Assembly (NCBI GenBank): GCA_002698785.1 | Contig: PAAG01000048.1 | Coordinates: forward strand, 1-64,000 | Origin: Verrucomicrobiales bacterium | GTDB taxonomy: Bacteria > Verrucomicrobiota > Verrucomicrobiia > Verrucomicrobiales > DEV007 | Length of the DNA: 64,000 bases | Direction: 5' to 3' | Part shown: one piece after another, positions 24,127 to 42,950 of the stretch | How positions within the stretch are numbered: position 1 is the stretch's first letter | How the letters are laid out: each line of letters begins with the position of its first letter | Made by a program: the position numbers and the translations under genes | Notes under the pieces: generated by a model | What the model saw: only the letters and a program-made list of their open reading frames with translations | The model's database searches: none | Told to the model about the DNA's origin: nothing

Positions 24127-24331
24127 TTTCGGGGGATTCTTGGGAAGGCTACTTTCGTAGAAGGGAGGATTGCAACGCAATTCAGAAACTGAAATGACAC
24201 AGATTTTGCGGGAATGAGGACGCATGTCACTGGTGGGTTAAATGCGTGTTTTTTCTGAAACATTTCTGCTTAATGGCAACTGAGTGGGGAATCGCCCCGT
24301 ATCAATTTGGAACAAGAAAAACCATTGCCTT

Positions 24332-24996: not shown

Positions 24997-26439
24997 ATGA
25001 GCCGCATGTCTTCTCGTCAATGCTCTGGGCCAATGCGCCGTCGCAGTTTCCTTCAAATCGGCGGTCTTACTGCTGCCGGCCTGGGGATGAGCGACTTTCT
25101 TCGTTATGAAGCGAATGCCGCAGCCCATGATGCTACTCATGTTTCCAACGATCACTCTGTGATCTTCATCTGGCTCCCAGGGGGGATGCCTCACATGGAG
25201 ACATACGACATGAAGCCGGATGCTCCGTCGGAGTATCGTGGGATTTACAGTCCAATTAAGACGAATGTTCCGGGCATCGAGGTTTGCGAGCTACTTCCGA
25301 TGCATGCGAAGATTGCCGACAAGTTCGCTGTCGTGCGTTCGCTACATCATGAGTTTCCCGATCATGGTGGTGCTCACAAACGGATGATGACGGGGCGGCC
25401 TCCGAAAGTTCCAACAGGCACCGTTAACGATGCGCCAGCTGTTTCCAGCATTGTGAAGAGCGTGCTCGGAAAAGATGCCACCCGTGGGACGGGTATGCCG
25501 ACCTGTGTGTCTGCGGTCGATCGCGGCAGACAGGGGGTAGATACGTATGCTTTTGGCGCTGCTTACCTGGGAGCATCGAACACTCCCTTTATCGTTCCTG
25601 GTGACCCCAGTGCCGCTGACTTTAAAGTCGAGAATATTGGCGTGAAGCAGGAGATGGAGACTCGTCTCGATGATCGACTTGCTATGCTAAAGGGCATGGA
25701 TCGGCTGCGCCGCGAAGTGGATGGCAACGGCATCATGGATGCGATGGACTCTTTCAATCAGCAGGCCATGGGAATGCTGACCAGCGACCAAGTTCGGGAT
25801 GCCTTTGACCTTTCCAAAGAAAATGATCGGACACGTGATCGCTATGGCCACCATGCCTATGGACAGCGTGCACTTCTTGCGCGCCGACTGGTCGAGTCCG
25901 GAACACGTTTTGTTACCGCGGTCTGGGAAAATCCATGGCCAGGCAAAACGATGCCAAAGAACTGTGCGTCGAACTGGGATTCCCATGCGGTCAACTGCGA
26001 CATTTTTGCAGACTGTAAGTGGCGGCTTCCTAACTACGACCAGGCGCTCACGGCTTTGATTGAGGACGTTTACCAGCGTGGCCTCGACAAGAAGGTGATG
26101 ATCGTCGTTGCAAGTGACTTTGGACACACTCCGAAAATCAATCCTCAGCGTGGTAACAAGTCGAAAGTGATTCAGCCGGGACGCGACCACTGGCCCAAGG
26201 CGATGTCGATTCTTGTCTCCGGTGGTGGAGCTCCTATGGGGCAGCTGATTGGGGCAACGGACGCGAAGGGTGAAACTCCGGTCGAGCGGATCATGACTCC
26301 GAACGACATGTGGGCGACCGTTTATCGCCACCTCGGTATCGATTACAACGACTACCTCAAGAATCTCGAAGGCCTGCCGATGCAGATTCTTCCTTTCGGT
26401 AAGCCAATCGAGGAACTCGCTCCTTCCGGGCTTACATAA
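24997..26439 (+). CDS. DUF1501 protein with Tat signal (plus-strand cluster)
   Basis: 480 residues from the ATG at 24997. Twin-arginine signal [18 protein letters not shown], so it is exported folded. DUF1501 belongs to the alkaline phosphatase/sulfatase superfamily: FIWLPGGMPHMETYDMKPDAP, then HHEFPDHGGAHKRMMTGR, LARRLVESGTRFVTA, WDSHAVNCD, and ASDFGHTPKIN with GRDHWPKA. These give the metal-binding His and Asp set without a sulfatase Cys. Function unknown; it always pairs with DUF1549/1553 cytochromes in PVC bacteria. The stop overlaps the next start by one base (TAATG). Confidence 0.92.
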   Translation: MSRMSSRQCSGPMRRRSFLQIGGLTAAGLGMSDFLRYEANAAAHDATHVSNDHSVIFIWLPGGMPHMETYDMKPDAPSEYRGIYSPIKTNVPGIEVCELLPMHAKIADKFAVVRSLHHEFPDHGGAHKRMMTGRPPKVPTGTVNDAPAVSSIVKSVLGKDATRGTGMPTCVSAVDRGRQGVDTYAFGAAYLGASNTPFIVPGDPSAADFKVENIGVKQEMETRLDDRLAMLKGMDRLRREVDGNGIMDAMDSFNQQAMGMLTSDQVRDAFDLSKENDRTRDRYGHHAYGQRALLARRLVESGTRFVTAVWENPWPGKTMPKNCASNWDSHAVNCDIFADCKWRLPNYDQALTALIEDVYQRGLDKKVMIVVASDFGHTPKINPQRGNKSKVIQPGRDHWPKAMSILVSGGGAPMGQLIGATDAKGETPVERIMTPNDMWATVYRHLGIDYNDYLKNLEGLPMQILPFGKPIEELAPSGLT

Positions 26440-28952
26440 TGGACTCTCCAATTAATGTTTTCGAGGGGCTCTTTCGGAGTTCTCTTTTCTGCCTGCTCAC
26501 GTTTCTTGCTGGCTCAGCAATTGGTGGGGAACTTCGTGTCCATACTGGTCAGGGTGGCTCTTCGCTTTCTTTCGTGACTGGAACGGATCGGGCGCAGGTC
26601 GTTGTTTCTCTCGATGGGAAACACGATGTGACTGGAAAGGTGCAATACTCGGTAGAGCCTTCTGATATTGCCAGCGTTGACTCGACTGGTTACGTAACTC
26701 CGCTGAAGAATGGAAAAGCGACTCTGAATATCACTCTTCCTGGCGAGCAGCCGATTTCTGCGAAGGCTCCGATTCAGGTTTCGAAGGTTGAGCAAGACCG
26801 GGTCGTAAGTTTTCCGAATGATGTTGTGCCGGTTTTTACTCGGAATCACTGTAATGCGGGAGCCTGCCATGCGAAGTCGACCGGTCAGAATGGGTTCCAG
26901 CTGTCTCTTCTCGGATATGAGCCAGAGAGCGACTATGACTTCATTGTCAGGCACTCCCGTGGACGCCGCGTTTCACCGTCTGCTCCTGAGAACAGTTTGC
27001 TGCTCCTGAAAGCGTCCGGTGAAATTCCGCACCAAGGTGGAGCACGATTGGATAAGAATGGACCGGACTACGAAACCATCGTTCGCTGGATCGAGAGCGG
27101 TTTGAAATATCGTCCGGAAAATGACGCGGATGTAGAGAGGATCGAGATATTTCCCAAGTCGATTGTGACAACCCCTAAGAGCAAGCAGCAGATTGCTGTG
27201 ACCGTCTATTTCAGCGACGGCTCTGTTCGAGACATTACACGGATGGCTCAGTACGAGGCCAATCAACCTGACATGGCGGAAGCGAGCGAGACTGGTTTAG
27301 TTTCACTCCAGGATAAGACGGGCAAGACCGCAGTGATCGTCCGCTTCCAGGAACACATCGATACATTCACCGCGACGATTCCTGTGAGCAATGAGGCTCC
27401 CGAGTTGCCGGCTCCGAAGAATTTTATCGATGAGCATATTTTCAAGCAGCTCAGCCTGATGGGGCTCCCACCTTCGAAAGGCGTCAGTGACAGTGTGTTC
27501 TTAAGGCGCGTAACGCTCGATATTGCTGGGCGTCTTCCGACTCTAGAAGAGACAAACACATTTCTTGCATCGACCGATGCGGAAAAGCGTTCGAAGAAGA
27601 TCGATCAATTGCTCGACTCGACCGATTACGGTGACTACTTCGCAGGGAAATGGGCGGGTATCCTGAGAAACAAAGTGAACCGAGGACGTCCCTGGGTTGC
27701 TCGAGATTCGCACGCGTTCCATGCCTGGATCCGGACGAGCTTGATTCAAAATAAGCCATTCGATCAGTTTGCTTCTGAGCTTATTCTTGCGAGCGGCAAA
27801 GCGATAGAGAATCCGGCAGTGAGTTGGTATCGTGTAGTGGAAGATCAAAAGGAGCGGATGGAAAACCTGTCTCAGGCGTTTCTGGGAATCCGGATGCAGT
27901 GTGCGCAGTGTCACCATCACCCTTACGAACAGTGGAGCCAGGACGACTACTTTGCCTTCACGGCATTTTTCTCCACGGTTGAGCAGAAGAACATTCGTAA
28001 GCTGCCTGAGGAAGACATCATTTATCACAATCGAAAGCAGGCATTGATGAAGAATCCTGCTTCGGGAGAAAACTTGAAGCCTCGACTTCTTGGGAATGCC
28101 GAGCCTATCGATATTCCTGCGGTACAGGATCCGAGGATCGAGTTGGCTGAGTGGATTCGTGATCCCAAGAATCCGTATTTCTCCCGGATGTTGGTGAATC
28201 GCTATTGGAAGCATTTCTTCAACCGTGGACTGGTAGAGCCAGAGGACGATATTCGTCCCACGAACCCTGCCACTCATCCCGAATTGCTGGAGGAGCTTGC
28301 GATTTCTTTTTCGGATAATGGATTTGATCTGAAGGAATTGGTTCGGACGATCTGCAACAGCCAGACCTACCAGCTCAGTTCTGAGCCGAATTCGGGCAAC
28401 TTGGGAGACGAGCAGAATTACGCCCGGTATTATCCGAAGAGGTTGCCGGCAGAGGTGTTGCTCGATTCTGTGAATGACATGACAGGGGCGACGAACTCGT
28501 TCAGCAATCAGCCACAGGCTGTGCGTGCCGTTGCTCTTCCCAATGAAAAGGGCACTCTCGAATCTGAATTTCTGATGATGTTTGGGCGGCCCGCGATGGA
28601 TACTGCGTGCGAATGTGAAAGGACGGGCGAGGCGAATCTGGGTCAAAGCCTCCATCTGTTGAACTCTGACACGATCCAGAAGAAACTGACATCGAACAGT
28701 GGGAAGGCTGCGGAGTTGGCAAAAGCGACGGATCGTAGCGATGAGGATCGGGTCACTGAACTTTATCTCCATGCCTTCAGTCGTAATCCGGTTGCGGAAG
28801 AGTTGAAGATCGCTCTTGAGCACCTGAAGAAAAAGCGAGATCTCTCAGCCGCAGATCCGAAGAGTCTTTCTCCTCAACAGGCCGAACGGGAGGCCTTTGA
28901 AGATATCGTTTGGGTGATCATGAATACGAAAGAGTTCATGTTTGTTCGCTGA
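26439..28952 (+). CDS. DUF1549/DUF1553 planctomycete-type cytochrome with Big_2 domain
   Basis: 837 residues. Signal sequence about 1-30; bacterial Ig-like (Big_2) domain about 31-115 (VDSTGYVTPLKNGKATLNI); a cytochrome-like segment with atypical CNAGACH (138-144, CX4CH); DUF1549 about 325-520 containing a standard CAQCH (488-492) followed by HHPYE; then DUF1553 to about 820 with [11 protein letters not shown] and QTYQLSSEPN. Family members are exported, probably redox-active, and found in large numbers in Planctomycetes and Verrucomicrobia. Paralogue of the gene at 37432, with the same length. Translationally coupled to the DUF1501 gene. Confidence 0.93.
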   Translation: MDSPINVFEGLFRSSLFCLLTFLAGSAIGGELRVHTGQGGSSLSFVTGTDRAQVVVSLDGKHDVTGKVQYSVEPSDIASVDSTGYVTPLKNGKATLNITLPGEQPISAKAPIQVSKVEQDRVVSFPNDVVPVFTRNHCNAGACHAKSTGQNGFQLSLLGYEPESDYDFIVRHSRGRRVSPSAPENSLLLLKASGEIPHQGGARLDKNGPDYETIVRWIESGLKYRPENDADVERIEIFPKSIVTTPKSKQQIAVTVYFSDGSVRDITRMAQYEANQPDMAEASETGLVSLQDKTGKTAVIVRFQEHIDTFTATIPVSNEAPELPAPKNFIDEHIFKQLSLMGLPPSKGVSDSVFLRRVTLDIAGRLPTLEETNTFLASTDAEKRSKKIDQLLDSTDYGDYFAGKWAGILRNKVNRGRPWVARDSHAFHAWIRTSLIQNKPFDQFASELILASGKAIENPAVSWYRVVEDQKERMENLSQAFLGIRMQCAQCHHHPYEQWSQDDYFAFTAFFSTVEQKNIRKLPEEDIIYHNRKQALMKNPASGENLKPRLLGNAEPIDIPAVQDPRIELAEWIRDPKNPYFSRMLVNRYWKHFFNRGLVEPEDDIRPTNPATHPELLEELAISFSDNGFDLKELVRTICNSQTYQLSSEPNSGNLGDEQNYARYYPKRLPAEVLLDSVNDMTGATNSFSNQPQAVRAVALPNEKGTLESEFLMMFGRPAMDTACECERTGEANLGQSLHLLNSDTIQKKLTSNSGKAAELAKATDRSDEDRVTELYLHAFSRNPVAEELKIALEHLKKKRDLSAADPKSLSPQQAEREAFEDIVWVIMNTKEFMFVR

Positions 28953-28986
28953 TCTGAATTCATCCCGAGACATTTCCCCCGCAGTT

Positions 28987-31518
28987 ATGAAGAGTTTCTT
29001 ATCCGGCTTTTTCGGAGTCGTTGCTTTCGCTTTCGTTTGTCCGGCGTATGCCTTTCTTCCGAATCCTGACTTGCTCACCATTTCTCCTTCTGTCGCCAAG
29101 GCGGGTACTACGGTTGAAGTTTCGATTTCGGGAAAGGATATCGAGGAAGCTGAGACGTTGCGGTTCTCAAGCGCGGCGATCAAGGTGGAGCCCGTGATGC
29201 TGCCTGCCGATGAATTTCATCCCACGCCAAGACCGGTCGAGGGGAAGTTTAAGGTGACTATCCCGAAAGAGGTCGAACCTACTGTTTACGAAGTGCGATC
29301 GAAAGGATACTTCGGGCTTTCCACGGCGAGGCCGTTTCTCGTGGTCCCTGCCGATGGAGTGCATATCGCGGAAGAGGGAGATCACTCAACGGCGGAAACC
29401 GCAATGTCTCTCGATGTAAATGCGGGATTGTTAGGGACTCTGGCAGGCGGAAAGTTTGACTGGTATAGCGTGACTGCGAAGAAAGGACAGCGCCTGTTGA
29501 TCGAAGTTATTGCTGAGCGCCTGGATTCCAAGGCGGATGTTCTCCTCGCGGTTAGTGACGTTGCTGGTGTTGAACTGGAGACAAGTCGCCACCACTTCGG
29601 AAGAGATCCATTCATTGATTTCACAGCTCCTGCTGATGGAACTTACCATATCTCTGTGACCGACACGCTTTACAGTGGCGGTAAGGAATATTTTTATCAC
29701 ATTCAGGTGAGCGATGGGCCACATGTCGATTTTGTCTTTCCTCCAGCGGGAGAACCCGGACAGAAAAGACGATTCACTTTCTTCGGTAGAAACCTGCCGG
29801 AAGGATCACTTGGTGAAGGGCACGAACTGAACGGAAAGAAAATCGAAACGGTAGAGAAAGAGTTGGTCGTTCCTGCTGATGTCACCGTTCCGGCCAGTTT
29901 TCATCCGGGAGTTCCACGCCAGGGAATGCTGCCGGGCTTCGAAGCGAGTCTGGGAAATTCGAATTCAGTTAGGGTTGGGTTTGCGACGGCTCCGGTTGTT
30001 GAAGAGAATGCCGAGGCGGAGGAGCAATCATTGACCGTTCCTTGTGAGGTGGCTGGACGATTTAATGAGCCTTCGGACTATGATGTGTTTCGCTTCCAGG
30101 GGAAAAAGGGGGCAACCTACTGGATCGACGTCGTTTCGCACCGCATGGGGACAGTGGCCGATCCGTATATTCTTGTGGAGAAGGTCGCGAAAGACAAAGG
30201 GGGGAATGAAACTTTCACCAAAGTGGCTGAAAACGACGATCTTCCTTCTTTCTTCAGTCCAGATGCGCTGAATGACCTCAATGCGGACTCTTATGATCCG
30301 GGGCTGAGTTTTACTCCTGATGCAGATGGGGACTATCGCGTTTCGCTTTTTAACCAGAGTGCCGATGGTAGCCTGGCCCATTTGTACCGGCTTGCGATTC
30401 GTGAGGCATTGCCTGACTTCCAGATTATCGCCGGGCACGAATTGACCAAGACAATTAATAACGATGCCTATCCCGCTGCACCATTGCTTCGCCGAGGTGG
30501 GTCGATGATCTATCGAATTATGGCGTTTCGTCAGGATGGGTTTGACGGAGATATTACGATCACAGCCAAAGGGCTTCCTAAAGGAGTGACAGCCAAGCCG
30601 CTCGTATTGAGCGGGGATTCGAGAGAAGGGTTCCTGACACTATGGTCTGAGCCAGACGCTCCCGCCTGGAGTGGTAAGATCGAGTTGGAAGGAAAGGCCA
30701 AGGTGGGTGATAAGGAGGTTGTAAGAATGGCACGGCCTGCCTCGCTTATCTGGGGGACACGTGTGTTCGGGTATGCTTCCCAAGTTCGGTCACGTCTCGA
30801 CCTGGAAAATGTTCTGTCCGTGATCGAATCGGAGACAGAGCCGACCCGGCTCACTGTTGCCGAGGATAAAGTCTGGGAAGTGGAAATGGATGGAACGCTG
30901 GAGATACCTCTTAAGACAATTGAGACGGGAAAGCGTGTCGGAAACCTTCAGGTAAACGTTCATGGCTTTCCCGGAATCCTGCGCAGTCCGCCGAGTGTTG
31001 CAATCGGAGAGAAGGACAAGGAAGCCAAGCTAAGTTTTCCTTTTAAGAAGACTGGAAACTTTGATTTGAAACCGGGCACTTACCAATTCGTTTTGCAAGG
31101 TGTCGGTAATGCAAAATACAGTCAGAACCCAGCTGCAGCAGAGAAGGCGAAGACCGAAGTAGAACGTTTGAAAAAAATCTCTGAAGCGATCCCTTCGAAG
31201 GTGACGGATGCGAAGAACGAGTTGGCCAAGGCCGAGAAATCACTCGCTGAGGCGAAGCAGAAAGAAGCGGGTGCGGCGGATGACAAGGCGCGTCAGTCCA
31301 TGAAAGAGGCAACTGCTCAGGCGCAGAAGCAGGTCGACGAGTCCAAGAAGAAAGTTCAGGAGGAAGAAGCGAAAGTAGCTGAAGTTAAGAAGCTTGTGGA
31401 TGCTTCGGTTAAGGTTGAGCAGAAGGCAAGTGCGACAGCCAGCGAGAAAACAAATCAGTTTGCGACGTTCTCTATGCCGATCACCGTTGTGGTAAAGGAA
31501 AAGGCGGAGAAGAAGTGA
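28987..31518 (+). CDS. PPC-domain surface protein with C-terminal coiled coil
   Basis: 843 residues from the ATG at 28987. Signal peptide about 1-23. An IPT-like beta domain (SPSVAKAGTTVEVSISG) starts it; two pre-peptidase C-terminal (PPC) domains follow, about 110-215 (FDWYSVTAKKGQRLLIEV) and 345-470 (YDVFRFQGKKGATYWIDV). Residues about 715-820 are a Lys/Glu/Ala coiled coil, and the chain then returns to a beta strand (FATFSMPITVVV). So the coil is inserted in the last beta sandwich. No enzyme motif. Paralogue, equally long, of the gene at 34858. Third gene of the plus cluster, 34 bp after the cytochrome gene. Confidence 0.88.
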   Translation: MKSFLSGFFGVVAFAFVCPAYAFLPNPDLLTISPSVAKAGTTVEVSISGKDIEEAETLRFSSAAIKVEPVMLPADEFHPTPRPVEGKFKVTIPKEVEPTVYEVRSKGYFGLSTARPFLVVPADGVHIAEEGDHSTAETAMSLDVNAGLLGTLAGGKFDWYSVTAKKGQRLLIEVIAERLDSKADVLLAVSDVAGVELETSRHHFGRDPFIDFTAPADGTYHISVTDTLYSGGKEYFYHIQVSDGPHVDFVFPPAGEPGQKRRFTFFGRNLPEGSLGEGHELNGKKIETVEKELVVPADVTVPASFHPGVPRQGMLPGFEASLGNSNSVRVGFATAPVVEENAEAEEQSLTVPCEVAGRFNEPSDYDVFRFQGKKGATYWIDVVSHRMGTVADPYILVEKVAKDKGGNETFTKVAENDDLPSFFSPDALNDLNADSYDPGLSFTPDADGDYRVSLFNQSADGSLAHLYRLAIREALPDFQIIAGHELTKTINNDAYPAAPLLRRGGSMIYRIMAFRQDGFDGDITITAKGLPKGVTAKPLVLSGDSREGFLTLWSEPDAPAWSGKIELEGKAKVGDKEVVRMARPASLIWGTRVFGYASQVRSRLDLENVLSVIESETEPTRLTVAEDKVWEVEMDGTLEIPLKTIETGKRVGNLQVNVHGFPGILRSPPSVAIGEKDKEAKLSFPFKKTGNFDLKPGTYQFVLQGVGNAKYSQNPAAAEKAKTEVERLKKISEAIPSKVTDAKNELAKAEKSLAEAKQKEAGAADDKARQSMKEATAQAQKQVDESKKKVQEEEAKVAEVKKLVDASVKVEQKASATASEKTNQFATFSMPITVVVKEKAEKK

Positions 31519-31670
31519 TTCGTTCTTAGAGCTTGATCGTATTTTTTCTCCCGTGCCTTGAGTAGGTTACGAACGTAGTCCGAATTCCGGATGTCATACT
31601 TTGATGCACTAACAATGCCGCATCGATCGAGCCTTTGGGTTGGCGCGATCCTTTCTTTTTAGGGGCCTAA

Positions 31671-31850
31671 ATGGCGAAGGATATACGTCTAACTGAAAGT
31701 AAGGAAAGAATCGAAGTGATGAACGAAACCGGAGAACTCAGCAGCGCCGATCGCATCTGGCTACACCTGAGATGCCCCTGTAAGAACTGGGAGCAGGCTC
31801 GGTTTCACATTGCTGGGATACTGCGCGAATTTGATTCACTCGTATCCTAG
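31671..31850 (+). CDS. Small unrecognised ORF (59 aa)
   Basis: MAKDIRLTESKERIEVMNET opens a 59-residue frame; the C-terminal half has LHLRCPCKNWEQARFHIAG with a Cys-Pro-Cys. It lies in the 349-bp gap between the convergent PPC and WD40 genes; nothing else was seen in 31519-31670. The upstream AGGGG is a weak ribosome-binding site. No family recognised. It may be a small protein, a remnant, or chance. Confidence 0.35.
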   Translation: MAKDIRLTESKERIEVMNETGELSSADRIWLHLRCPCKNWEQARFHIAGILREFDSLVS

Positions 31851-31867
31851 CAGTATTCTCGAATCGA

Positions 31868-34861
31868 TTATTCAGAAGCCACCTTGCCGTCATTCGCTTC
31901 GGGTGAAGGGAATTCCCCAATCAGCTTCTTTGCTGTAGCATCCCACAGTCGGAGGACACTGTCCTGACCTCCTGCGATAATCAGTTTCCCATCTTCGCTG
32001 ACATCTGCTGTGTGGAGAAAGGTATCTCCTGTGTTGGGGAGAGCTGCGGTGGAGAGTTTTAATGTTTTGTCTCCACTGGCGGTCAAAAGCGTTTCTGTTC
32101 CTCCAACATAGGATACAGAGCTGACCTCCTTATCGAAGCCCTCCACCTTCGACTTCTCTTGTCCTGCAGTGAGGTCCCACACCTTGACCTGAAGGTCGGC
32201 ACCAGAGCTGGCGATAGTAAGGTCGTCTTCGTTCCACGTAACATCGAGGACATGGCTTGTGTGACCTTCAAATGTTTGGACGTATGTGAGTGAATCAGTT
32301 TCGAAGACTTTTACCTTCTGATCGGTAGAAGCGGTTGCGAACTTCGATCCGTCTGGAGAGAAAGAAACGGCAGTAATGGCGTCGTCGTGTGCATCGTCGT
32401 TGGTGGCGATTGGCTCCCATGTTTTGGTATCCCATGTGACCAGAATGCCGTTTCGAGAAGGAACTCCCGTACCTGTGACCAGACGATTGCCGTCCGGTGA
32501 GAAGGCAAGAGCAGGAACGCGGTCAACAAACGGGTCTGCTGCTTTTCCGTCCCCGAGGGTTTTCGCAAGCGTCCATTGCTGGCCTGGAAGTGTCCAGACA
32601 AGCATGTTCTTCGCTTTTCCGACGGTGAGGATTTTGTTGCCGGAAGAGAAGGCGAGAGATTGGATTCCGTCCATTACAGGGACGTCTTCCAACCATTTTC
32701 CGTCGGTGGCAGACCAGAGGCGAATCGTATTTTCGCCGACTGCCTGGGCCAGTTGAGATCCGTCAGAAGAGAAAGAGAGGGATTGAAGAGTGAGCTTGGC
32801 AGCAGCTTCATTCTCGGCTTTCTGGAGTGCTTCACTCTCCGCTTTGAGCGCGGCTACGAGAGCCTCGGCTTCTGCGGCTGAGGACTGTGCTGCGATCTGG
32901 CGACCGTAGCCTTCGCCGGCGAGGCGTGCGGAAAGCTCACGATTTCGGATTGCCCCGCCAAGGGTCCGTTTTGCTTCGTCGTATGCTTTTTGTGCCGCTT
33001 CGATTTCTTCAGGTTTTGCTTCGGGTGTTTTTGTCTGGATTGCTTCGAGATCTTTTTGCTTTGCCACGACGTCTCGGCGCGCTTTGGCGATGGCCTCTCC
33101 TGCGGCTTTTGCTTTTTCTTCCTCGGCTTTCCACAATTTCTCTTCCTCAGGTCCTTTCTTGTCCCAGTAACCTTTTAGCCGAGTCGCGACAGAACTCTGG
33201 CGGTTGAATGCGTCGACCTTGGGTTGTGTGGCAGGGTTTGCTTTTAATTCCGCTACCAAATTTCCGGCGGCAATATTCCAGAGCTTGGTGGTTCCGTTGT
33301 TTCCTGAAGTGGCGAGCCGTGCGCCTCCTGGAGTTTTCAGTGAAACTGCCATATGCTTTAGTGCCCCACCGTGAGAGATCCGGCGAATTTGGGCGGGAGC
33401 TGCTGTGGGTTTGGCGGGATCGAATTTACAATGGATTACTGTCCCATCTGCGTGGCCGACAAAGAATTCATTGCCAGCTGGATTTGCAGTTGCCACGGCA
33501 ATGACTGGTTGCCCATGAAATTTGAACTGCACCAGTTTCTGAGGTTTGGGTGGGGCAGGTGCCGGTTTCGGCGGAGTAGGTGCGGGCTTTTTCGCTTCCT
33601 CTTTTTTCGGCGCTGGTGGTGTTGCAGCCGTTTTTTGCTTTTCTCCCGATGGCTTGGCTGGGGCGGGCTTTGGAGCCGGAGCAGGTTTTGTCTCCGGTTT
33701 CGGTTTTGCAGCAGGGACTTCCTTCGGCTTGTCTGCTGGTGGATTTGGTTTCTTTGCTTCTGGCTCCGGGCTGGGCTTGGGGGCAGGAACTGGAAAGGTG
33801 CTTGTCAGGTCGGCGTTGCAGATCCGGATCACTTGATCGGCAAAACCAAGGACGAGGTGCTTTCCTCCATCGATCAGGGCCAGGGAGTTGGCTGCCGAGG
33901 GGAGGGGGAGGGAAACTGATTTGGTAGGATCTCCGAGGCTACGTCGCTTTGCCGTCTTGTCAGCGGAAACTGAGTAGAGCTGAGCGCCGTCTGCGTTAAA
34001 TGCGAGTGCTTCTACTTTCCCTGCATGGTCTTTCACTGTGACAGGTGTGGAGTCTGGTTTCGAAATGTCGAGCAACTGAATCGATCCATCGGCACCGCCA
34101 ATCGCGACACGTTTTCCATCAGGAGAAACTGTCAGGGAAGAGGGATCGCTTGGTAGTGCGATTGCTGCTCCGGCAGAAGCTTCGCTGCGTTGCCAAATCT
34201 TCACTGTTCGGTAACCACCTGTGGCAATCGTTCCATCAGGGCTGAAAGCAACAGCCTGAACAAGATCTCGATGTGCTGCAGGCTTCTCAAGAGATGGGTC
34301 GGTTAGTGAGGCGACCAGTTCTCCTAGGCGGAGGTCGTAAAGATCTACTTTCTGTCCGCGACCTGCGGCGGCGAATCGGCCGTCTTTTGTAAGGGCAGCG
34401 GTGTAGATTGGCTGCGGACCACTCAAGTACGTCCACGACTCGGGGGCTGCTGTAGAAACCACGTCGCCCTTCGCGCCTTCTTCGATCCAGCGCTTGAGGA
34501 GACCGAGTTGCTCCGAAGTCAGGTTCTTCGCCTTCGACTTGTTATTCGCCGGAGGCATGGTGGGCTCCTCGATGTGAGCAGCCGTGGTGAAGAGGAGGGA
34601 ATATTCGGAATTGCCCGGTTCGATTGCAGGGCCAGTGTCGCCGCCTTTTAGCATATCCTGAGGAGACTCCAGATTGAGGTCTGCTTTGGCTTTGGTGGAG
34701 TTGTGGCAAGCGAGGCAGTTCGCTTTCAGAAAGGGATACACTTCGGTCGCGAATTGGACCGGTTCTTCTCGTTTGATTTCTGCTACTGGCAATTCGGCCT
34801 TTGCGATTGTGGCGCAAAAACAAAAGAGGAGTAATAGAAGGGAGCAGGGAGTTTTCATCAT
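31868..34861 (-). CDS. Cytochrome c/WD40-repeat protein with Pro-rich linker and coiled coil
   Basis: 997 residues. Signal peptide 1-22. A PSCyt1 cytochrome domain has CLACH (49-53) and a likely distal Met in EEPTMPP (102). First WD40 block about 140-355; Pro/Ala/Lys linker about 355-440; WD40 repeats resume (LVQFKFHGQPVIAVA); a charged coiled coil about 575-690 interrupts; a second WD40 block fills to the end (ITAVSFSPDGSKFATASTD, VLDVTWNEDDLTIASSG, GGQDSVLRLWD). This gives a haem-bearing beta-propeller scaffold outside the cytoplasm. The start overlaps the PPC stop as ATGA. No counterpart exists in the plus-strand cluster. Confidence 0.9.
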   Translation of the reverse strand: MMKTPCSLLLLLFCFCATIAKAELPVAEIKREEPVQFATEVYPFLKANCLACHNSTKAKADLNLESPQDMLKGGDTGPAIEPGNSEYSLLFTTAAHIEEPTMPPANNKSKAKNLTSEQLGLLKRWIEEGAKGDVVSTAAPESWTYLSGPQPIYTAALTKDGRFAAAGRGQKVDLYDLRLGELVASLTDPSLEKPAAHRDLVQAVAFSPDGTIATGGYRTVKIWQRSEASAGAAIALPSDPSSLTVSPDGKRVAIGGADGSIQLLDISKPDSTPVTVKDHAGKVEALAFNADGAQLYSVSADKTAKRRSLGDPTKSVSLPLPSAANSLALIDGGKHLVLGFADQVIRICNADLTSTFPVPAPKPSPEPEAKKPNPPADKPKEVPAAKPKPETKPAPAPKPAPAKPSGEKQKTAATPPAPKKEEAKKPAPTPPKPAPAPPKPQKLVQFKFHGQPVIAVATANPAGNEFFVGHADGTVIHCKFDPAKPTAAPAQIRRISHGGALKHMAVSLKTPGGARLATSGNNGTTKLWNIAAGNLVAELKANPATQPKVDAFNRQSSVATRLKGYWDKKGPEEEKLWKAEEEKAKAAGEAIAKARRDVVAKQKDLEAIQTKTPEAKPEEIEAAQKAYDEAKRTLGGAIRNRELSARLAGEGYGRQIAAQSSAAEAEALVAALKAESEALQKAENEAAAKLTLQSLSFSSDGSQLAQAVGENTIRLWSATDGKWLEDVPVMDGIQSLAFSSGNKILTVGKAKNMLVWTLPGQQWTLAKTLGDGKAADPFVDRVPALAFSPDGNRLVTGTGVPSRNGILVTWDTKTWEPIATNDDAHDDAITAVSFSPDGSKFATASTDQKVKVFETDSLTYVQTFEGHTSHVLDVTWNEDDLTIASSGADLQVKVWDLTAGQEKSKVEGFDKEVSSVSYVGGTETLLTASGDKTLKLSTAALPNTGDTFLHTADVSEDGKLIIAGGQDSVLRLWDATAKKLIGEFPSPEANDGKVASE

Positions 34862-37389
34862 TTCTTGTCCGGTGTTGGTGCCGGCTTGATCTCGACCGTC
34901 AAGGGAAGGGAGTAGGTTGTGAAATTTACATCCTTCTGGGCGGCTCGCTTTGCCAGAGAGGTGGCGCGTTCGGTTACCTCTTTCTTAGCCGTTTCGGCAG
35001 CTTTCTGCTTGGATTCGGCTTCGCTTTGGGCTTTTTGCGCGGCTTCGTATTTTGCTTTCGCTTCTACGACTGCCTTTTCCAGATTGGGTTTGGCTTCGTT
35101 GGAAGCGGAGGCCAGATTCGCTTCTTTGGCTGCGAGGTCTTTCTTTGCTGCCTCTGCCTGGGATCTCGCTTGAGTAGACGCTGCGGTGTATTTTTTGAGA
35201 AGGGCCTCTACGTGTTGCTGCTCTTCTTTTGCGCGCTCGGCCGCTTGCGGGTTGTGTTTGTAGCGCGTGACGCCATTAGCTTTCAGGGTGAAGTTCCAGG
35301 TGCCGGACTTTGGTGAAAAGACGTTCTTCTGCTCTTTGAATGAAAGTTTCAAAACACCTTTATTCTCTTTCTCTGCGATCGTAAGGGTTGGTGGCTTGCT
35401 GAGGCCGTTCAGGTCAGAAGGGGTGATGGTGAGGTTGCCCTTGATGTCGTTTTTTGTCGGGACTTTGACCGGGATCTCTAATGTCTCACCGAGAGTGACT
35501 GTGAAATTTCGTGTCCCTTCTACGGTGACGAAGGCTGGTGTGGATTCTTCCTGACTAACAGCAAGAGGGATCTGTGAATCGAGCCGTGACGCTGGACGAT
35601 CGGCGTTGTGGTCGGCAGAACCTCGAGTCAGGGTGCCTCCTCGAACGGGGCGTGTGATTTCGTTTTCTCCAATCTTTGCTTTTCCGGTGATCTGGATTGT
35701 GCTGTTCGCGCCGGGGGCATCCAATTTTGAATGGAATACGAGGCGTGCGGATTTCTCAGAACCTGACAAAGTCACCTCTGGGCAGAATGTTCCCTCGGGG
35801 AGGTTGGATGCGGTGAGTGTGATCGGTCCGTTGAAGCCGTCTTTTCTAAGAGCGAGAACTCGGAGGGAGAAAGAACCGCCTTTTCTTAGTAGCGGAGTTG
35901 CCGGGTACATCTGGCGTTGATCAAGATAGGGGCGTTCCATCACTGCGATAAGATCGAAGTCAGGCTGCGCCTCCCGGAATGCGAGACGGTAGAGGTAATC
36001 TGGGCCGCCAGAATCGAATTGATTTGCGAGAGTGACTTTTACCTCGCCGTCCTGGTCTGAGGTGAATCCCACGGAAGCATCCCTGGTGCCTGCGTAGAAC
36101 GTGTTTCCTCCGATACCGTTGTCGTCATCATTGTCCGCAATTCTTGAAAGCGTTTCTGTGCCGTCTTCCTTCTTCGTGACTTTCTCCACAAGAAGATATG
36201 GATCTACTTTTCCTGAGAGGCGGTCACCGATTGTTTCGACCCGATAGGCAATCCCTTTCTTTACGATGAAGCGAAATGTATCGCTGTCTCCATTCTGGTC
36301 GAACCGGCCCGCAATTTCTATTGGAGCGTTCTGAGCGGGAATATCGTTGTCGTTTTGTTCCGTAACAACAGGTAGGTCTGTTAGACTAATTTCTACCACA
36401 TTGGTTTCTGCCGCTCCGATGGCGGAAACGGGAAAGGAAGGAATGAGAGCCGCTGTCGGTTTCTTGACCGTGTATTCGGGGATAACAGGAGTTTTGGGGA
36501 TGGGAATTTTAAGGGATAGAGTTTCAACGGGCTTGCCGTCAATTTCGAGTCCCTCTCCCGGACTTCCTCCGGGAAGGTTTCTGCCGATGATTGTGGCCGA
36601 AAGCTCAGTTCCTTTTGTGCCTGCCGGTGGAAATACAGCATCAATCCAGGGCCCCTTTGTGGCGGTCAATTGGTAGGGGGACTTTGTGCCGCCTCGATAG
36701 AGGAAGTCGTGCACGCCGATCCAATAGGCTCCGTTTTTCTCAGGAGAGAAATCGATGAGAGGATCTCGCCCTTTGTAGTCGCGACTGCGCTCAAGCTCGA
36801 AGCCGTTTGAATCGACTAGAGTGAGTGTTGCGTCGGTTTGCGAATCAATCTGTTGAGCGCGTGCCTGGATCAGGATTCGATCTCCTTTTTTTGCTTCGAT
36901 TTTCCACCAGTCGATGCGGTTGGGGTCAGTGGTGCCGTATGCGATCGAATCGAGGGGAAGTGATGGGGCTGTTTCTCTTTCGTGATGCGCGACGCCTGCT
37001 GAGTCTGGGAGGAGCTGCGTTCCTTTTGATGCGATGGTTACGGGGCAGGAGGTAGACATCCCAAAGTAGCCTATCGTCCTGACAGTGACCTCTCCCTCGG
37101 GTGCATTCTCTGGCACTGTGATACGAAACTTTGTTCCATTCTGACGGGGGTATTTTTGGAATTCAGTTTTGGGAAGTAAGACGGGCTCCGCTTTAATAAG
37201 CCCGTTCGAGAAATGAAGCCCGGACAGATCTTCCAGGTTGCTCCCTGTCAGAGTTACTTCAGTTGTTTCCCCGGCGGTGATGATGGGCGGGGAAATGGCA
37301 TCCAACTCAGCAGTGGGTAATTGAGCGTGAGTGGTCAGGCACAACAGTGCAAAATAGACATAGAGGATAGTAGGGATCGAAAACTTCAT
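34858..37389 (-). CDS. PPC-domain surface protein with coiled coil (minus-strand cluster)
   Basis: 843 residues from the ATG at 37389 (MKFSIPTIL); the open frame extends nine codons further. Signal peptide ends THAQ. Same plan as its paralogue at 28987: IPT-like start (SPPIITAGETTEVTLTG), two PPC domains (IDWWKIEAKKGDRILIQA and SDTFRFIVKKGIAYRVE), Ig-like stretches, an Ala/Lys/Glu coiled coil about 713-813, then a final strand FTTYSLPLTVEI. It likely sits on the cell surface. The downstream WD40 gene overlaps by 4 bp; the cytochrome gene lies 42 bp upstream. Confidence 0.88.
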   Translation of the reverse strand: MKFSIPTILYVYFALLCLTTHAQLPTAELDAISPPIITAGETTEVTLTGSNLEDLSGLHFSNGLIKAEPVLLPKTEFQKYPRQNGTKFRITVPENAPEGEVTVRTIGYFGMSTSCPVTIASKGTQLLPDSAGVAHHERETAPSLPLDSIAYGTTDPNRIDWWKIEAKKGDRILIQARAQQIDSQTDATLTLVDSNGFELERSRDYKGRDPLIDFSPEKNGAYWIGVHDFLYRGGTKSPYQLTATKGPWIDAVFPPAGTKGTELSATIIGRNLPGGSPGEGLEIDGKPVETLSLKIPIPKTPVIPEYTVKKPTAALIPSFPVSAIGAAETNVVEISLTDLPVVTEQNDNDIPAQNAPIEIAGRFDQNGDSDTFRFIVKKGIAYRVETIGDRLSGKVDPYLLVEKVTKKEDGTETLSRIADNDDDNGIGGNTFYAGTRDASVGFTSDQDGEVKVTLANQFDSGGPDYLYRLAFREAQPDFDLIAVMERPYLDQRQMYPATPLLRKGGSFSLRVLALRKDGFNGPITLTASNLPEGTFCPEVTLSGSEKSARLVFHSKLDAPGANSTIQITGKAKIGENEITRPVRGGTLTRGSADHNADRPASRLDSQIPLAVSQEESTPAFVTVEGTRNFTVTLGETLEIPVKVPTKNDIKGNLTITPSDLNGLSKPPTLTIAEKENKGVLKLSFKEQKNVFSPKSGTWNFTLKANGVTRYKHNPQAAERAKEEQQHVEALLKKYTAASTQARSQAEAAKKDLAAKEANLASASNEAKPNLEKAVVEAKAKYEAAQKAQSEAESKQKAAETAKKEVTERATSLAKRAAQKDVNFTTYSLPLTVEIKPAPTPDKK

Positions 37390-37431
37390 CCGAACGGCGG
37401 GTGGGGATATCCCCAAGTGGGGGGGGCTTGA

Positions 37432-39945
37432 TCAGTGGTTGAAGAGAAACTCCTTCGTGTTCACGATGGCCCAGAGGATGTCTTCGAAGGCTTCTTTTTC
37501 TGCGAGATCGGGAGTGATTTCGTCGTCAGGTTTTTCGGCTGCCTTCGAGCGTTTTTTCTTCAGGTGAGCTTTCGCTGCTTCCAGTTCTTTTGCATTGGGC
37601 TCTCTGGCGAGTGCATGCAGGTAGAGATCAGAAAGGCGATCGGTGTCGGGTCGGTCAGTAGCCGTTGCGAGAGCTGCAGCTCGGCCATCTTCATCGGCGA
37701 GTTTCTTCTGAATGGTGTCGGAGTTAATCAGGTGAAGACTCTGGGCAAGGTTTGCATCGGCAACGCGTTCGCATTCGCATGCACTGTCCATTTCCGGGCG
37801 ACCAAATACTGTGAGAAAGAATGAGTCATCGTTGAACTTGTCATCCGGAAGCCAGGTGGCTCGAACTCCGGCGGGTTGGCCGTTGAAGGTATCCTCTGCG
37901 TCGGAGACGGTGTTGATGGCATCGAGGAGAACCTCGGCCTGGAGACGTTTGGGATAATAACGGGAGAAGTTCTGCGAATCCTTCGCGTTGTGCTCATTCG
38001 GAACGGCGCTGAGCTGGTAGGTGCGACTGTTGCAAATCGTCCGAATCAATTCCTTCAAATCGAAATCGGTTGAGGCAAAGTGTATGGCCAATTCATTCAA
38101 CAGGTCGGGATGAGAGGCCGGGTTGGTGACGCGCATGTCATCCTCTGGCTCCACCAGGCCAATGCTGAAAAAATGCTTCCAGTAGCGATTGACTAACATG
38201 CGTGCAAACCAAGGGTTGTCTGATGAGGTCAGCCAATCGGCCAATTGTTTGCGAGGATCTTGTGCAGCCGGAATGTCGAGTGGCTCTTCGCCCAGTGGCG
38301 TCGGTTTGAGGGTGACTTTGGTGTTCGGGTTCTGCATTGCCGCAGTGGTACGCCGATGATAGACGATCTCTTCGTCCGGTTGTTCTCCCTGCTTTCGGCC
38401 GACGGTGGTGAGGAAAGCGGCGAAGCCGTAGTAGTCGTCCTGCGACCACTTTTCGTATGGGTGATGGTGGCATTGCGCGCACTGCATGCGTATGCCGAGA
38501 AATACCTGGGCGATGTCCTGCATCTGCTCTTTCTGATCCTTTACTGCGCGGTACCAACCGACCGCTGGATTCTGTCCGATTTCACCGGAAGCGGTTACCA
38601 GTTCGGAAACCAATTCATCGTAAGGGCGGTTGTTTGCGAGGTTGGTGCGCAGCCAGTCGTGAAAAGCAAACGTGCCGCGCTGATAGGTGTCCTTGGCTCT
38701 CTTGTTGCGGAAGATTCCGGCCCACTTCTGAGCGAAGTAGGCGGCGTAGTCAGGGGAGTCGAGGAGTTCATCAATCTTCCTGGTTCGCTTGTCAGGATTC
38801 TTCGACGAAAGGAATTCTCTCGTTTCTTCTACCGAAGGAAGTCGGCCAGCAATGTCGACAGTGACCCGTCGCAGGAACTCTGCGTCTCCTGTGCCTCTGG
38901 AGGGTGGAAGGCCGAGTAGCGTGAGCTTCGAAAAAATGTGTTCGTCGATCAGATTGTTGGGTGAAGGAAGTGAATCGATCTCTTTCCCGAGAGGGATTGT
39001 TGCTCGGAAAACGTCGACGTGTTCCTGGAAGCGAATCATAACGGAAGTTGTGCCCGTCTTATCATTCAAGGTGACCAGTCCGTTGGTGTCGACTTCAGCC
39101 CTGTCTTCCTGATTGGCTTCGTAGATCGCCGTGCGGGTGATGTCCTGAGCGGTGCCGTCGGAGTAGAATGCGGTAACAGCGAGTTGTTGCTGCGCTTCTG
39201 CAGAGAGCACTCTCTCTTTTGGAAAGACTTCAATGCGTTCCACTTTTGGATTTCCGTCGTTCGGGTAGGGCATCCCCTGTTTGATCCAACGAACGAGAGT
39301 CTGGTAGTCGGTTGATTCTCTATCGAGGCGGATTCCTCCCTCGTGAGGAATCTCTCCGGTGGCTTTCATGAGAAGGAGGCTGTTCTGCGGTGCTGCTGGG
39401 GAAATACGCCGTCCTTTTGATTCTTTTACTAACCAGTCGTGGTCGTTCCACGGTTCGTAGCCGAGAAGGGAGAGCCGAAAGTTATTCTGCCCTCCTGACT
39501 TTCCATGACATCCTCCGCCATTGCATCCGTATTTTGTGAAGACGGGAACGACTTCGTTCGGAAAGTCGATAGCAGGTTCGGAATCGAAATCGGTGACAGT
39601 TGCCTTGGTAGTGGCTGCCGGGCCTGTGTGTCCGGGAAGCGTCGCCGAGATGGTGGCTGTCCCGTTCTTGAGAGGGGTTATGTAGCCATGAGAATCGATG
39701 GCTACGATGCCCTCTGGTTTCGCCTGGAATTGTGCTGATCCGGTGACATCGGTTTCCCCATTGGACTTGTTCGTGACGACAATCTGTTGCCCTCCGTAGG
39801 GGCCTTTCAGAGAAAAGGCGCTGACCTGCGTTTCGAGCTGAGCTTTTGGAAGCGCCGGTGCCTTTTCCTTTTCCTGCGCATCGCTGGTGGTGAAGCCAAG
39901 AAGAACTGGGAAGAGAATTGAGAATATATGCTTCGTTGTTTTCAT
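37432..39945 (-). CDS. DUF1549/DUF1553 planctomycete-type cytochrome (minus-strand cluster)
   Basis: 837 residues, exactly the length of its plus-strand paralogue. Signal peptide 1-23 (ends TSDAQ). Big_2 domain about 40-120 ([18 protein letters not shown]). CX4CH motif CNGGGCH at 141-147, then [16 protein letters not shown]1549 from about 325 with [17 protein letters not shown]1553 with [21 protein letters not shown] and [13 protein letters not shown]. Probably an exported electron-transfer or haem-using enzyme of unknown substrate. The start overlaps the DUF1501 stop as ATGA. Confidence 0.93.
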
Positions 39946-41300
39946 CCTACCAATTCCTTCATCGGTGCATATTCCGGATCGACCAGATAAGTTGGTCGTC
40001 CTGTTAGGTCCTCTATCGTCGTGTTGCGTGCGTCGATGCCCACGTTGTGGTAGAGGGTCGAGAACACTTCCTGAAATTCGACTGGTCGTTCAGCCGCTTC
40101 ACCGCCGAGGCGATCAGTCGCTCCGATGATCTGGCCGTGATTCATGCCGCCTCCAGCGAGGAGTGCACAACTGACTCGGGGCCAGTGGTCGCGCCCGGCT
40201 TTCTCGTTAATCTTTGGCGTTCTGCCAAACTCACCCCAGACAACGACGCTGACGTCTTTGTCCAAGCCTCGATCGTGTAGGTCCTGAACGAGGGCGCTCA
40301 CACCCTGATCCAGAAGTGGGAAATCTTCGCGGCCTCTCTTGAAGTTACGGTCATGCCAGTCCCAGCGTGAGAAGCCGATGGTGACACAGCGAGCTCCCGC
40401 CTCGACGAGGCGTCTGGCCATCAGGAATTGATCGAGACGTTTCCAGCATCCATCGGCTCGAAGTTCTTCACTTCCTTTACCATAACGAAGTACCAGGTCA
40501 GGATCTTCTTTCGACAGATCCATCGCATCGGCAAGGGCGCTGGAAGTCAGGACTCCGAATGCCTGCTGGTTGAAGACGTCGAGGCCTTCCATCATTCCGG
40601 AGTTGTCGACATCTCTACGGAAGTTGTCGAAGCTGGTGAGGAGAGACTGCCTGTCACGGAGGCGTTCCAGAGAAATCCCATCGAGCACGATGTCTTCTTT
40701 ACCGCCTCCTCGAAAAGGAGTGAACGCAGAGTGAGCTGGTCCGAGGAAACCGGACTGACCGGGATCGCCCCATTCGTCGTGGCGACATTTGGGAGACAGG
40801 CCAACAAACGGAGGACAGGAATCGTTCGTTGCTCCTTGAAGCTTTGATAGGGCTGCGCCCATGCTTGGCCATCCTCCGGGAGGAGCGCCTTTCCGGCCCG
40901 GTCGCCCGGTGAGGCACATCATGAGATCGTGGGGGCCCTCGCAGCCGACCATGGATCGAACGAAACTGAACTTGTCCGCCATACCGGCGATGCGGGGAAA
41001 CTCTTCGCAGATTTCAATGCCGGGGACATTGGTTTTGATTGGGCGGAACTCTCCACGGTATTCGGAGGGAGCGTCAGCTTTCAAATCCCACATGTCCTGA
41101 TGGGGCGGGCCCCCGGGGAGCATGATCATGATGACTGCTTTGTGATTGATTCCGCGATGGGCGATTTTGCTTTGGGCCTCTGCCGCAAGTAACTGGGGGA
41201 GAGATGCACCGCCGAGGGCCAGTCCTCCTATCTGGAGGAAGGATCGCCGAGAAAAGCCGTCGCAGAAGCGATCGGAATCTTCGCCTAAGATTGTAAGCAT
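39942..41300 (-). CDS. DUF1501 protein with Tat signal (minus-strand cluster)
   Basis: 452 residues. Twin-arginine signal [21 protein letters not shown]1501 core: [84 protein letters not shown]. Closest plan to the gene at 24997. First gene of the four-gene minus cluster; its promoter must lie in 41301-41498, shared with a third DUF1501 gene that reads away from it. Confidence 0.92.
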
Positions 41301-41498
41301 GAGGATTTGAAAACGGGGGTTTTTGTTCCGGAAAAGCGGAGTTCCCGAACCTTGTAAGAATAAGGAATCGTGGGCTTTTGAGCCAGACTGCTCGGGTACG
41401 TGTTGGCGTGGTAAGTGATCGCGGCCCCTGAAGCATTTACTCGGTCCGTCGGCCTGTGAGATAACCCCTTGTAATCAAGCGCTTTCTGACGCTCGAAT

Positions 41499-42950
41499 AT
41501 GGCTAGTGACTTTCGATCTCCCAGTGGTTCTGGCTTTGCCCTCCGATCGACCCGCAGGGCTATGGTCAAGGCCGGTGCGTTAGGGTTGCTCGGAGGCTTC
41601 AGCCTTGATCGGCTCGCGGCCGCGGGATCGACTGGGAGCAAGTCCCCAAAATCGGTGATTTACGTGTTTTTATCCGGAGGGTTGGCTCAACACGAAAGCT
41701 TCGATATGAAGCCTGAGGCGCCATCTGAAGTTCGGGGGGAGTTTCGACCAATTCCGACAAAAACTCCGGGGCTGCACATCTGTGAACATTTGCCCGAGCT
41801 CGCCAAACGCAGCGACAAGTGGGCGATATGTCGATCTTTGTCGCATGGATCCAATGAGCATTCTGACGGTCATCTGATCATGATGACTGGGCGCACAGAT
41901 TTGCCTCCGGGATTTGATCGCAATAAACCTACGGAAACCGATTGGCCTTCTATGGCTGCTTTGATGGGACATTTGCTACCGAAAGGCGGCACGCTTCCTC
42001 CGGCGATGGTTCTGCCAGAAAAGATGGTGCACCGGACTGGTCGTGTTATTCCGGGACAGTTCGGTGGCTTATTGGGGCGACAGCACGATCCCTTCTTCGT
42101 CGAAGCGTCGCAATACAATCCAAAGCAATACGGAGCGTATCCTGAATATCTTTTTCACCATGCTGACGGCTCAGTGAAACGTGATGACCTGCAGTTCCGG
42201 ACACTCAGTCTTGATTTGCCTGATACCATTGATTTTGAGCGGTTTCGCGATCGGCTGGGATTACGAGGGCTGCTCGATAAGCAGCAGGAGCATCTTGAGG
42301 TCGCGATGCACGCCCAAGGGATGGATCGCTATCGAGAAATGGCCGTGAGCCTTTTATCTGATCCGAAAGTGAAAGAGGCTTTCGACGTTCACAGTGTGGA
42401 TGATTCCATTCAAGATCGCTATGGAAGGAATGCCTTTGGTTGGTCTTTGCTGATGGCGCGGCAATTGGTGGAGTCAGGTGTGCGGATGGTGCAGGTGAAT
42501 CTCGGAAATAATGAAACCTGGGACACTCACCAAGCTGCTTTTCCCAATTTGAAGAACTATCTTTTTCCGCCTACGGATCGGGCGATTTCGGCTCTATTGG
42601 ACGATCTGGAGGAGCGGGGGATGCTTGACGATACGCTGGTTGTGGTGGCCAGTGAATTTGGCAGAACTCCCAAGGTCACTACTCTACGTGGTGCGGAACT
42701 GCCCGGGCGTGATCACTGGGGCGCCGTCCAGAGCATACTGCTGGCGGGAGGCGGGGTGCAGGGCGGAGCCGTTCTGGGCGAGACCGATAAGCTGGGCGGA
42801 GAACCGATTGCGGATGGAAGAAAGGCAGAGGATCTAGCGGCAACAATCTTTGATACACTCGGCGTGCCTCGCGATACTCACTGGACTGATGTCACAGGGC
42901 GACCGATGCCTCTCTATCTGGGAGAGCCGATCCGCGAACTGTTCGCGTGA
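41499..42950 (+). CDS. Third DUF1501 protein, Tat-type signal
   Basis: 483 residues. N-terminus RSTRRAMVKAGALGLLGGFS is a twin-arginine signal. Core motifs: YVFLSGGLAQHESFDMKPEAP, SHGSNEHSDGHLIMMTGR, MARQLVESGVRMVQVNLG, WDTHQAAFPNLK, ASEFGRTPKVTTL, GRDHWGAVQ. It is more distant from the two cluster copies than they look from each other, and has no cytochrome partner next to it. It diverges from the minus cluster (198-bp gap) and ends at the start of uvrC. Confidence 0.9.
   Translation: MASDFRSPSGSGFALRSTRRAMVKAGALGLLGGFSLDRLAAAGSTGSKSPKSVIYVFLSGGLAQHESFDMKPEAPSEVRGEFRPIPTKTPGLHICEHLPELAKRSDKWAICRSLSHGSNEHSDGHLIMMTGRTDLPPGFDRNKPTETDWPSMAALMGHLLPKGGTLPPAMVLPEKMVHRTGRVIPGQFGGLLGRQHDPFFVEASQYNPKQYGAYPEYLFHHADGSVKRDDLQFRTLSLDLPDTIDFERFRDRLGLRGLLDKQQEHLEVAMHAQGMDRYREMAVSLLSDPKVKEAFDVHSVDDSIQDRYGRNAFGWSLLMARQLVESGVRMVQVNLGNNETWDTHQAAFPNLKNYLFPPTDRAISALLDDLEERGMLDDTLVVVASEFGRTPKVTTLRGAELPGRDHWGAVQSILLAGGGVQGGAVLGETDKLGGEPIADGRKAEDLAATIFDTLGVPRDTHWTDVTGRPMPLYLGEPIRELFA

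Follow-up and report, generated by a model that had tools for sequence, protein, structure and literature searches.

Two anciently diverged DUF1501 and cytochrome gene clusters in a Verrucomicrobiales genome and their recurrent gene order

Gene content of the two clusters

Contig PAAG01000048.1 of a Verrucomicrobiales bacterium (assembly GCA_002698785.1) contains in its first 64,000 nucleotides, hereafter the window, two gene clusters of opposite orientation that encode DUF1501 proteins (D), Ig/PSCyt2/PSD1 proteins (C) and PPC proteins (P), one of them also encoding a PSCyt1-WD40 protein (W). The plus-strand cluster has the order D-C-P. It opens with D1 (24997..26439), a DUF1501 gene with a twin-arginine motif, followed by C2 (26439..28952), whose product is a predicted cytochrome built of Ig, PSCyt1-like (CX4CH), Ig, PSCyt2 (CAQCH) and PSD1 domains, and by P3 (28987..31518), encoding an exported PPC protein with a charged helical segment near its C-terminus. 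The minus-strand cluster has the order D-C-P-W and comprises D7 (39942..41300), C6 (37432..39945), P5 (34858..37389) and W (31868..34861); C6 and P5 are paralogues of C2 and P3, and W joins a PSCyt1 domain with a CxxCH motif to a WD40 propeller and a further charged helical segment. A third DUF1501 gene, D8 (41499..42950, plus strand), diverges from the minus cluster. All eight genes are open reading frames (ORFs) at the positions given by a first-pass annotation made from the sequence alone, and their Pfam families are those that it had named, as are both gene orders, the divergent D8 and the presence of W, within the window, in the minus cluster only.

The DUF1501 family (PF07394) exceeds the Pfam cut-off in the three D proteins (E 3.8e-80 for D1, 1.2e-84 and 3.5e-88 for the others), as do PSCyt2 (PF07583) and PSD1 (PF07587) in both C proteins and PSCyt1 (PF07635) in W. 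An NCBIfam scan gave no match near its cut-offs. The twin-arginine motif reads RRSFLQ in D1 and D7 and RRAMVK in D8. Charged and probably helical long segments recur in relatives (46 of 64 P and 32 of 36 W, complete proteins only), and are possibly a contact between P and W. Measured from ATG starts, the paralogues have the equal lengths that had been reported, 837 amino acids for both C and 843 for both P. This equality looks coincidental, since the ORF lengths of both families vary among relatives; in pairwise alignment C2 and C6 are 58% identical, D1 and D7 38%, and P3 and P5 37%. Start-stop overlaps are found at D1/C2 (TAATG), D7/C6 (ATGA) and P5/W (ATGA), as had been noted, but not at the two C/P junctions, where gaps of 34 and 42 nt separate the genes provided that the ATG starts are correct. 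D8 overlaps uvrC, named from its family match, which starts with GTG. One terminator-like site lies between the clusters, against 0.4 expected.

Gene order in other genomes and history of the clusters

Related loci were collected with a profile of the two window C proteins, and the best 80 of at least 569 confirmed relatives in named genome records were retained. By record title they are mostly from Verrucomicrobiota, with some from Planctomycetota and two from Acidobacteria. Sixteen loci were labelled plus-type and 64 were left as the rest, by hand, from the C tree. Counting only loci with enough flanking DNA to see the neighbour concerned, a same-strand D gene lies beside C in 49 of 56 non-plus-type loci, P follows C in 47 of 52, and W is present in 35 of 42. 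The corresponding plus-type figures are 12/13 for D (eight divergent and four on the same strand), 13/14 for P and 2/11 for W. The module is therefore real, and W is a regular member of the minus-type cluster and not of the plus type. The D-C-P(-W) order is repeated across Verrucomicrobiota as well as in some members of Planctomycetota and Acidobacteria, and the proteins diverge together: within the plus type, correlations among C, P and D distances reach r 0.97-0.99 (36 pairs, 9 loci), and within the rest (42 loci) they are 0.86 for C-P, 0.73 for C-D and 0.70 for P-D. The joint function proposed in the first-pass annotation, with conservation of gene order across genomes as its test, is supported by these data.

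The same annotation had read stoichiometric synthesis into the start-stop overlaps. Among the 42 non-plus-type loci having at least 7 kb of upstream DNA, the number of same-strand D genes within 8 kb upstream of C is one in 15 loci, two in 10, three in nine, four in two and zero in six. Such variation speaks against fixed stoichiometry and suggests that D is the part that varies. Some loci depart further from the common layout. L117 and L108 carry several upstream DUF1501 genes and another DUF1501 gene between C and P, and a tandem pair of P genes lies between C and W in L061 (12410-17553).

Trees were built for C (86 rows), D (129 rows), P (57 rows) and W; they are quick trees in which long branches are present. 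In the C tree the plus copy groups first with L069, L086 and L089 and next with L061, L065, L068 and a clade of mostly planctomycete members, and the minus copy groups with L046, L048, L047 and others. The two clades occur together in five more named genomes, with the record prefixes JAGRPB, JARGOZ, JAGRPC, JAEUHH and CAJXQE, and each window copy has nearer relatives in other genomes (71% and 74%) than its counterpart. The P tree shows the same plus/minus split. The D tree differs from both: D1 and the plus-type D proteins related to it occupy a long branch of their own, and the nearest outgroup of D1 is a DUF1501 pair located downstream of the C-P-W clusters of L125 and L104. A single clade of the D1 and D7 groups, which were named after the D tree had been seen, was rejected by the approximately unbiased (AU) test (p 0.001), and the rejection was stronger, with a far lower p, when two D1-side rows not of plus type were removed. 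Mean distances between types, compared with those within them, are 0.60 versus 0.38 and 0.28 for D, 0.50 versus 0.43 and 0.39 for C, and 0.68 versus 0.68 and 0.47 for P; the excess of between-type over within-type distance is thus far larger for D than for C.

These results show that C and P of the two clusters split early and stayed together, and that the plus cluster has a D of another branch. Most simply, this is explained by an exchange of DUF1501 in an early plus-type cluster; alternatively, D1 may have evolved fast. The pair of clusters did not arise by recent duplication, because the C genes sit in old, separate clades that co-occur in five other genomes, and because D1 and D7 are not sisters as C and P imply; they are two anciently diverged copies. 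Duplication had been put forward with alignment and trees of the paralogues as its test, and the trees do not support it. Of the broader view of one machine present as two facing versions, the recurrent module is what stands.

The facing layout itself was traced to a congener, G007, only. One contig of G007 carries the left flank of the window (Dxr, CdsA-like, iPGM and sulfatase genes, named by family match) followed by D1 and C2. On a second contig P3 faces W, and beyond W come P5, C6, D7, D8, a further two C/D-like genes, then uvrC and a gene for a PBP transpeptidase. The layout is broken there between C2 and P3 (L175, L176), by either a rearrangement or an assembly error. Because G007 shares the junction at which P3 faces W, the layout probably predates the split between the two genomes. 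It is not general: G015, G001 and G005 hold both cluster types on different contigs, those of G001 being just 13 and 15 kb long. In L046 and L048, D8 and uvrC are again found next to the minus-type cluster, and L048 retains the PBP gene there too. As for the suggestion that W might be shared, the W of plus-type locus L086 groups with the W of minus-type locus L052 from the same genome (support 98, both on long branches), and this is the sole hint that W can serve both cluster types.

Possible haem sites, modelled DUF1501 fold and genome-wide pairing

Haem could be attached to the C proteins at two sites, CX4CH and CAQCH. All 86 C rows contain the CX4CH motif (CNxGxCH) and a CxxCH; the latter is partly guaranteed, since the search that gave the 80 loci used the peptides MQCAQCH and HHPYE[KQ]W, whereas CX4CH played no part in it. 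C proteins were aligned (60 of 75, with the two of the window, 62 in all) and a subset of 50 was scanned for families; both PSCyt2 and PSD1 were matched by 50/50 (E up to 1), and PSCyt1 by one. The CX4CH domain gave no Pfam PSCyt1 match in C2 or C6, and its motif is CX4CH instead of CxxCH. In profile comparison, however, it matches PSCyt1 domains with E 4e-15, which identifies it at the sequence level as a divergent PSCyt1 relative with a longer haem motif. Haem attachment at CX4CH occurs in other cytochromes. A model of C6 (predicted local distance difference test score, pLDDT, 89) shows Ig domains at 34-122 and 233-319, the CX4CH domain between them and a helical region at 325-837. Residues 141-155, at the CX4CH motif, are poorly predicted, as might be expected of a model built without haem. 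A fold search with this model covers the Ig domains only, which resemble S-layer and adhesin domains, and a search for solved relatives with the C profile returned Ig-like regions and one weak BRO1 match. CxxCH is present in 36/36 complete W. C and W are predicted c-type haem proteins. A C-like protein of 1,670-1,709 amino acids with CX4CH and CNKCH motifs is encoded elsewhere (G000:C34:82965-85277; L013, L172), with a DUF1501 gene downstream on the same strand.

For DUF1501, a model of D7 (pLDDT 84) aligns with phosphodiesterases of the nucleotide pyrophosphatase/phosphodiesterase (NPP) type (VIA-align Z 19.3 to 7cba, 252 residues at 3.2 Å) and with sulfatase 1p49 (Foldseek E 3.1e-6, but TM-score 0.35). 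The DUF1501 profile matches a profile of 30 sulfatase domains from the same genome (E 9.4e-7); against Phosphodiest the hhalign match is weak (E 0.0055), and a search with the D7 sequence for solved relatives found none. The DUF1501 profile itself reached only isocitrate lyase and ribosomal S20, with E values no better than 0.017, and these matches were set aside as chance. The comparisons show DUF1501, as modelled, to have an alkaline phosphatase (AlkP)/NPP/sulfatase fold with an altered active-site region, and the fold of D1 is taken from that of its paralogue D7. Membership of DUF1501 in the AlkP fold may already stand in Pfam.

Residues invariant in an alignment of 62 D proteins (59 of 121 complete D ORFs and the three of the window) include RR18-19, H124, D314, H316, F358, G369, R370 and H372. 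The sulfatase alignment places E357-F358-G359 of DUF1501 on the sulfatase D-N-G motif. The ligand and nucleophile set of active sulfatases (PF00884) and AlkP was not found in DUF1501, the invariant Phe358 standing at the Asn of the DN motif and E357 at its Asp. By analogy with NPP chemistry, D314, H316 and H372 could form the first metal site, the second metal site would be altered, retaining E357 but with Phe in place of His/Asn, and H124 would lie near the nucleophile position. DUF1501 would thus resemble the AlkP/NPP/sulfatase superfamily in fold and differ from it in the presumed nucleophile and second-metal regions. A twin-arginine-type motif (RR, any residue, two hydrophobic residues) was found in 112 of 115 complete D ORFs, and the genome encodes TatC and the cytochrome c assembly family PF01578. 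Export across the inner membrane is well supported by these signals; location at the surface is a prediction.

The genome (7.0 Mb, 60 contigs) contains 50 DUF1501 genes, obtained from 52 matches by merging two pieces and omitting one below cut-off. Their neighbours were counted with 88 of 89 C-profile matches and two of three DUF1800 matches, the third lying within a PSD1 gene. No more than 4 kb separates all but one of the 50 from a PSCyt2/PSD1 match (47) or DUF1800 (2). A same-strand C-profile match lies within 4 kb of 46, with C upstream in 42 and downstream in four, and one further DUF1501 gene (D8) has it on the opposite strand. The D-before-C order of the window is therefore a minority form in its own genome (4/50 versus 42/50).

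DUF1800 (PF08811) may be linked to PSD1 by more than a common partner. Over 36 genomes its model gave ten matches below cut-off, and the nine that were scanned are all PSCyt2-PSD1 proteins, in which PSD1 aligns to the same end of the DUF1800 model (about 239-418). In hhalign, PSD1 against DUF1800 reached E 6.5e-4 (probability 28%), compared with 0.018 or more for unrelated controls; the value was 0.003 with a smaller DUF1800 set. DUF1800 was weakly matched by 16 of 50 C proteins (best E 0.001), a count that adds little because CCP_MauG (19) and PBS_linker (18) are matched about as often. This weak similarity and the common DUF1501 partner suggest, without proving it, that PSD1 is homologous to DUF1800. 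Further from the data, it is conceivable, though we would lean slightly against it, that PSCyt2-PSD1 is the haem-bearing counterpart of DUF1800, and that DUF1501-PSD1 in bacteria of the Planctomycetes-Verrucomicrobia-Chlamydiae (PVC) group and DUF1501-DUF1800 elsewhere among bacteria represent a single two-subunit system, widespread and extracytoplasmic. In such a system a metallo-subunit of altered AlkP fold, exported by the twin-arginine (Tat) pathway, would work with a dedicated helical partner; PVC bacteria would have added one to three c-type haems and the adaptors P and W, and would hold dozens of copies with exchangeable DUF1501.

Possible functions and relation to known systems

We favour the reading that both clusters of the region are members of an ancient and conserved four-part module of exported proteins that acts as a redox-linked metallo-complex, and give it a probability of about 0.5. 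Its parts differ in strength: the module and its history are highly probable, and the extracytoplasmic redox-linked function is tentative. DUF1501 would fold in the cytoplasm, probably around a metal, before export by Tat, whereas C, P and W would be exported by Sec, C and W receiving c-type haem outside. The four proteins would then form a complex with DUF1501 as its substrate-binding or catalytic metal subunit, C (two haems) as the electron-carrying partner of DUF1501, W as a further one-haem propeller and P as an adaptor. DUF1501 probably sets specificity, because it varies in number and has been exchanged.

Several points weigh against this reading. Haem is not essential to the pairing, since no CxxCH was found in the DUF1800 partner ORFs listed, and DUF1501, with Phe358 in place of Asn and without the AlkP residues, may not be an enzyme. 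Conservation of CxxCH in C is owed in part to the search peptides. The exchange of D is read from quick, long-branched trees and from groups named after the tree was seen, and one of the four plus-type loci with D on the same strand, L061, has just a 133-amino-acid DUF1501 fragment, nearest D7. None of the further recurrent neighbours among the 80 loci names a substrate, sulfatases are not enriched around the DUF1501 genes (see below), and biochemical data on any module member were not found in the literature searched.

The main rival is a structural or adhesive envelope assembly whose scaffold consists of Ig, PPC and WD40 domains and charged helical segments, with DUF1501 as a catalytically dead AlkP-fold binder and the haems structural or vestigial; we hold it possible, on a par with the redox-linked function. 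The likeness of the C Ig domains to S-layer and adhesin domains, the altered DUF1501 site, the DUF1800 partners lacking CxxCH and the frequent helical segments of P and W all fit it. It leaves unexplained why the CX4CH of C and the CxxCH of W are strictly kept, and why Asp, His and His are invariant in every aligned DUF1501.

A role in the breakdown of (sulfated) polysaccharides appears unlikely. The idea goes back to He et al. (2017; PMC5615132), who connect PSCyt genes with sulfatases and carbohydrates and report both sulfatase genes nearby and, in certain PSCyt proteins, carbohydrate-binding modules. The genome has about 136 sulfatase places (136 used of 141 match rows), and one adjoins the plus cluster. 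Around the 50 DUF1501 genes, however, there are four within 5 kb (9.2 expected), 14 within 8 kb (13.6 expected) and 22 within 12 kb (18.6 expected; 542 of 3000 shuffles as high), in a shuffle test that approximated most contig ends by the largest coordinate seen. Among neighbour groups present in at least five of the 80 loci, named by eye, sulfatase-like genes occur in just 15 and a propeller-like protein in 9, while the remaining groups reach 6 or 5 loci; none is general. No carbohydrate-binding domain was found among the families listed for the eight window proteins (for W, among 25 of 46 matches). The adjoining sulfatase gene (22654-24225; PF00884, SGSH_C) is retained in G007.

That the genes are co-inherited neighbours without a physical complex would accord with the varying DUF1501 number, but gene order conserved across phyla, start-stop overlaps and co-divergence make it improbable. 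A recent inverted duplication that left two specialised facing versions of one surface machine is very improbable: the shared order and architecture, the identity of the C proteins, the convergent layout and the W-facing-P3 junction of G007 would suit it, but the trees and the separate contigs of the two types in three genomes largely refute it.

The four-part module with a redox-linked metallo-complex as its putative product can be set beside several described systems. PSCyt/PSD genes of Verrucomicrobia were described as having high copy number, various domain combinations, conserved neighbours of unknown family and unknown function (PMC5615132). To judge from the parts of that paper used here, they share with our clusters the PSCyt2-PSD1 proteins, the Big_2 and WD40 combinations, neighbours of unknown family and many copies, and the defined D-C-P-W order, the CX4CH form of PSCyt1 and the position of D before C go beyond it. 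DUF1501 genomic clusters of PVC bacteria were reported by Kamneva et al. (2012); as cited in PMC4452313 and PMC4960237, they likewise combine DUF1501 with exported neighbours, with signal peptides noted, and unlike them the present analysis covers haem, fold and subunit exchange. DUF1501 genes adjoin WD40 genes in Planctomycetes according to the section of PMC5587647 considered. The DUF1501-DUF1800 operons of other bacteria, as excerpted from PMC5122149, resemble the window clusters in having a twin-arginine DUF1501 beside one partner gene and differ in that the partner is DUF1800, whose ORFs listed here are without CxxCH. We found no report of the CX4CH variant of PSCyt1, of the DUF1501 fold or of a PSD1-DUF1800 link in the open literature searched, subscription papers and preprints lying outside it and the motif not being isolated by query. 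New here are the CX4CH domain as a divergent PSCyt1, the DUF1501 fold, the genome-wide pairing of DUF1501 and the weak DUF1800-PSD1 similarity.

DUF1501 and PSCyt/PSD genes occur in dozens of copies in genomes like this one, with no function assigned in the literature found. The fixed four-gene unit and the fold of DUF1501, together with the probable second haem site and the possible tie to DUF1800, give testable expectations for this large unexplained part of such genomes.

Two further genes of the window lie outside the clusters. One (54034-58755) encodes a large DUF4011/AAA_11-AAA_12/MTES_1575 nuclease/DUF3320 protein, of a kind known from defence genes. The other (59059-61155) encodes a fusion of an NDH2-like pyridine nucleotide-disulphide oxidoreductase with a cyclic-nucleotide-binding domain and two CBS stretches.

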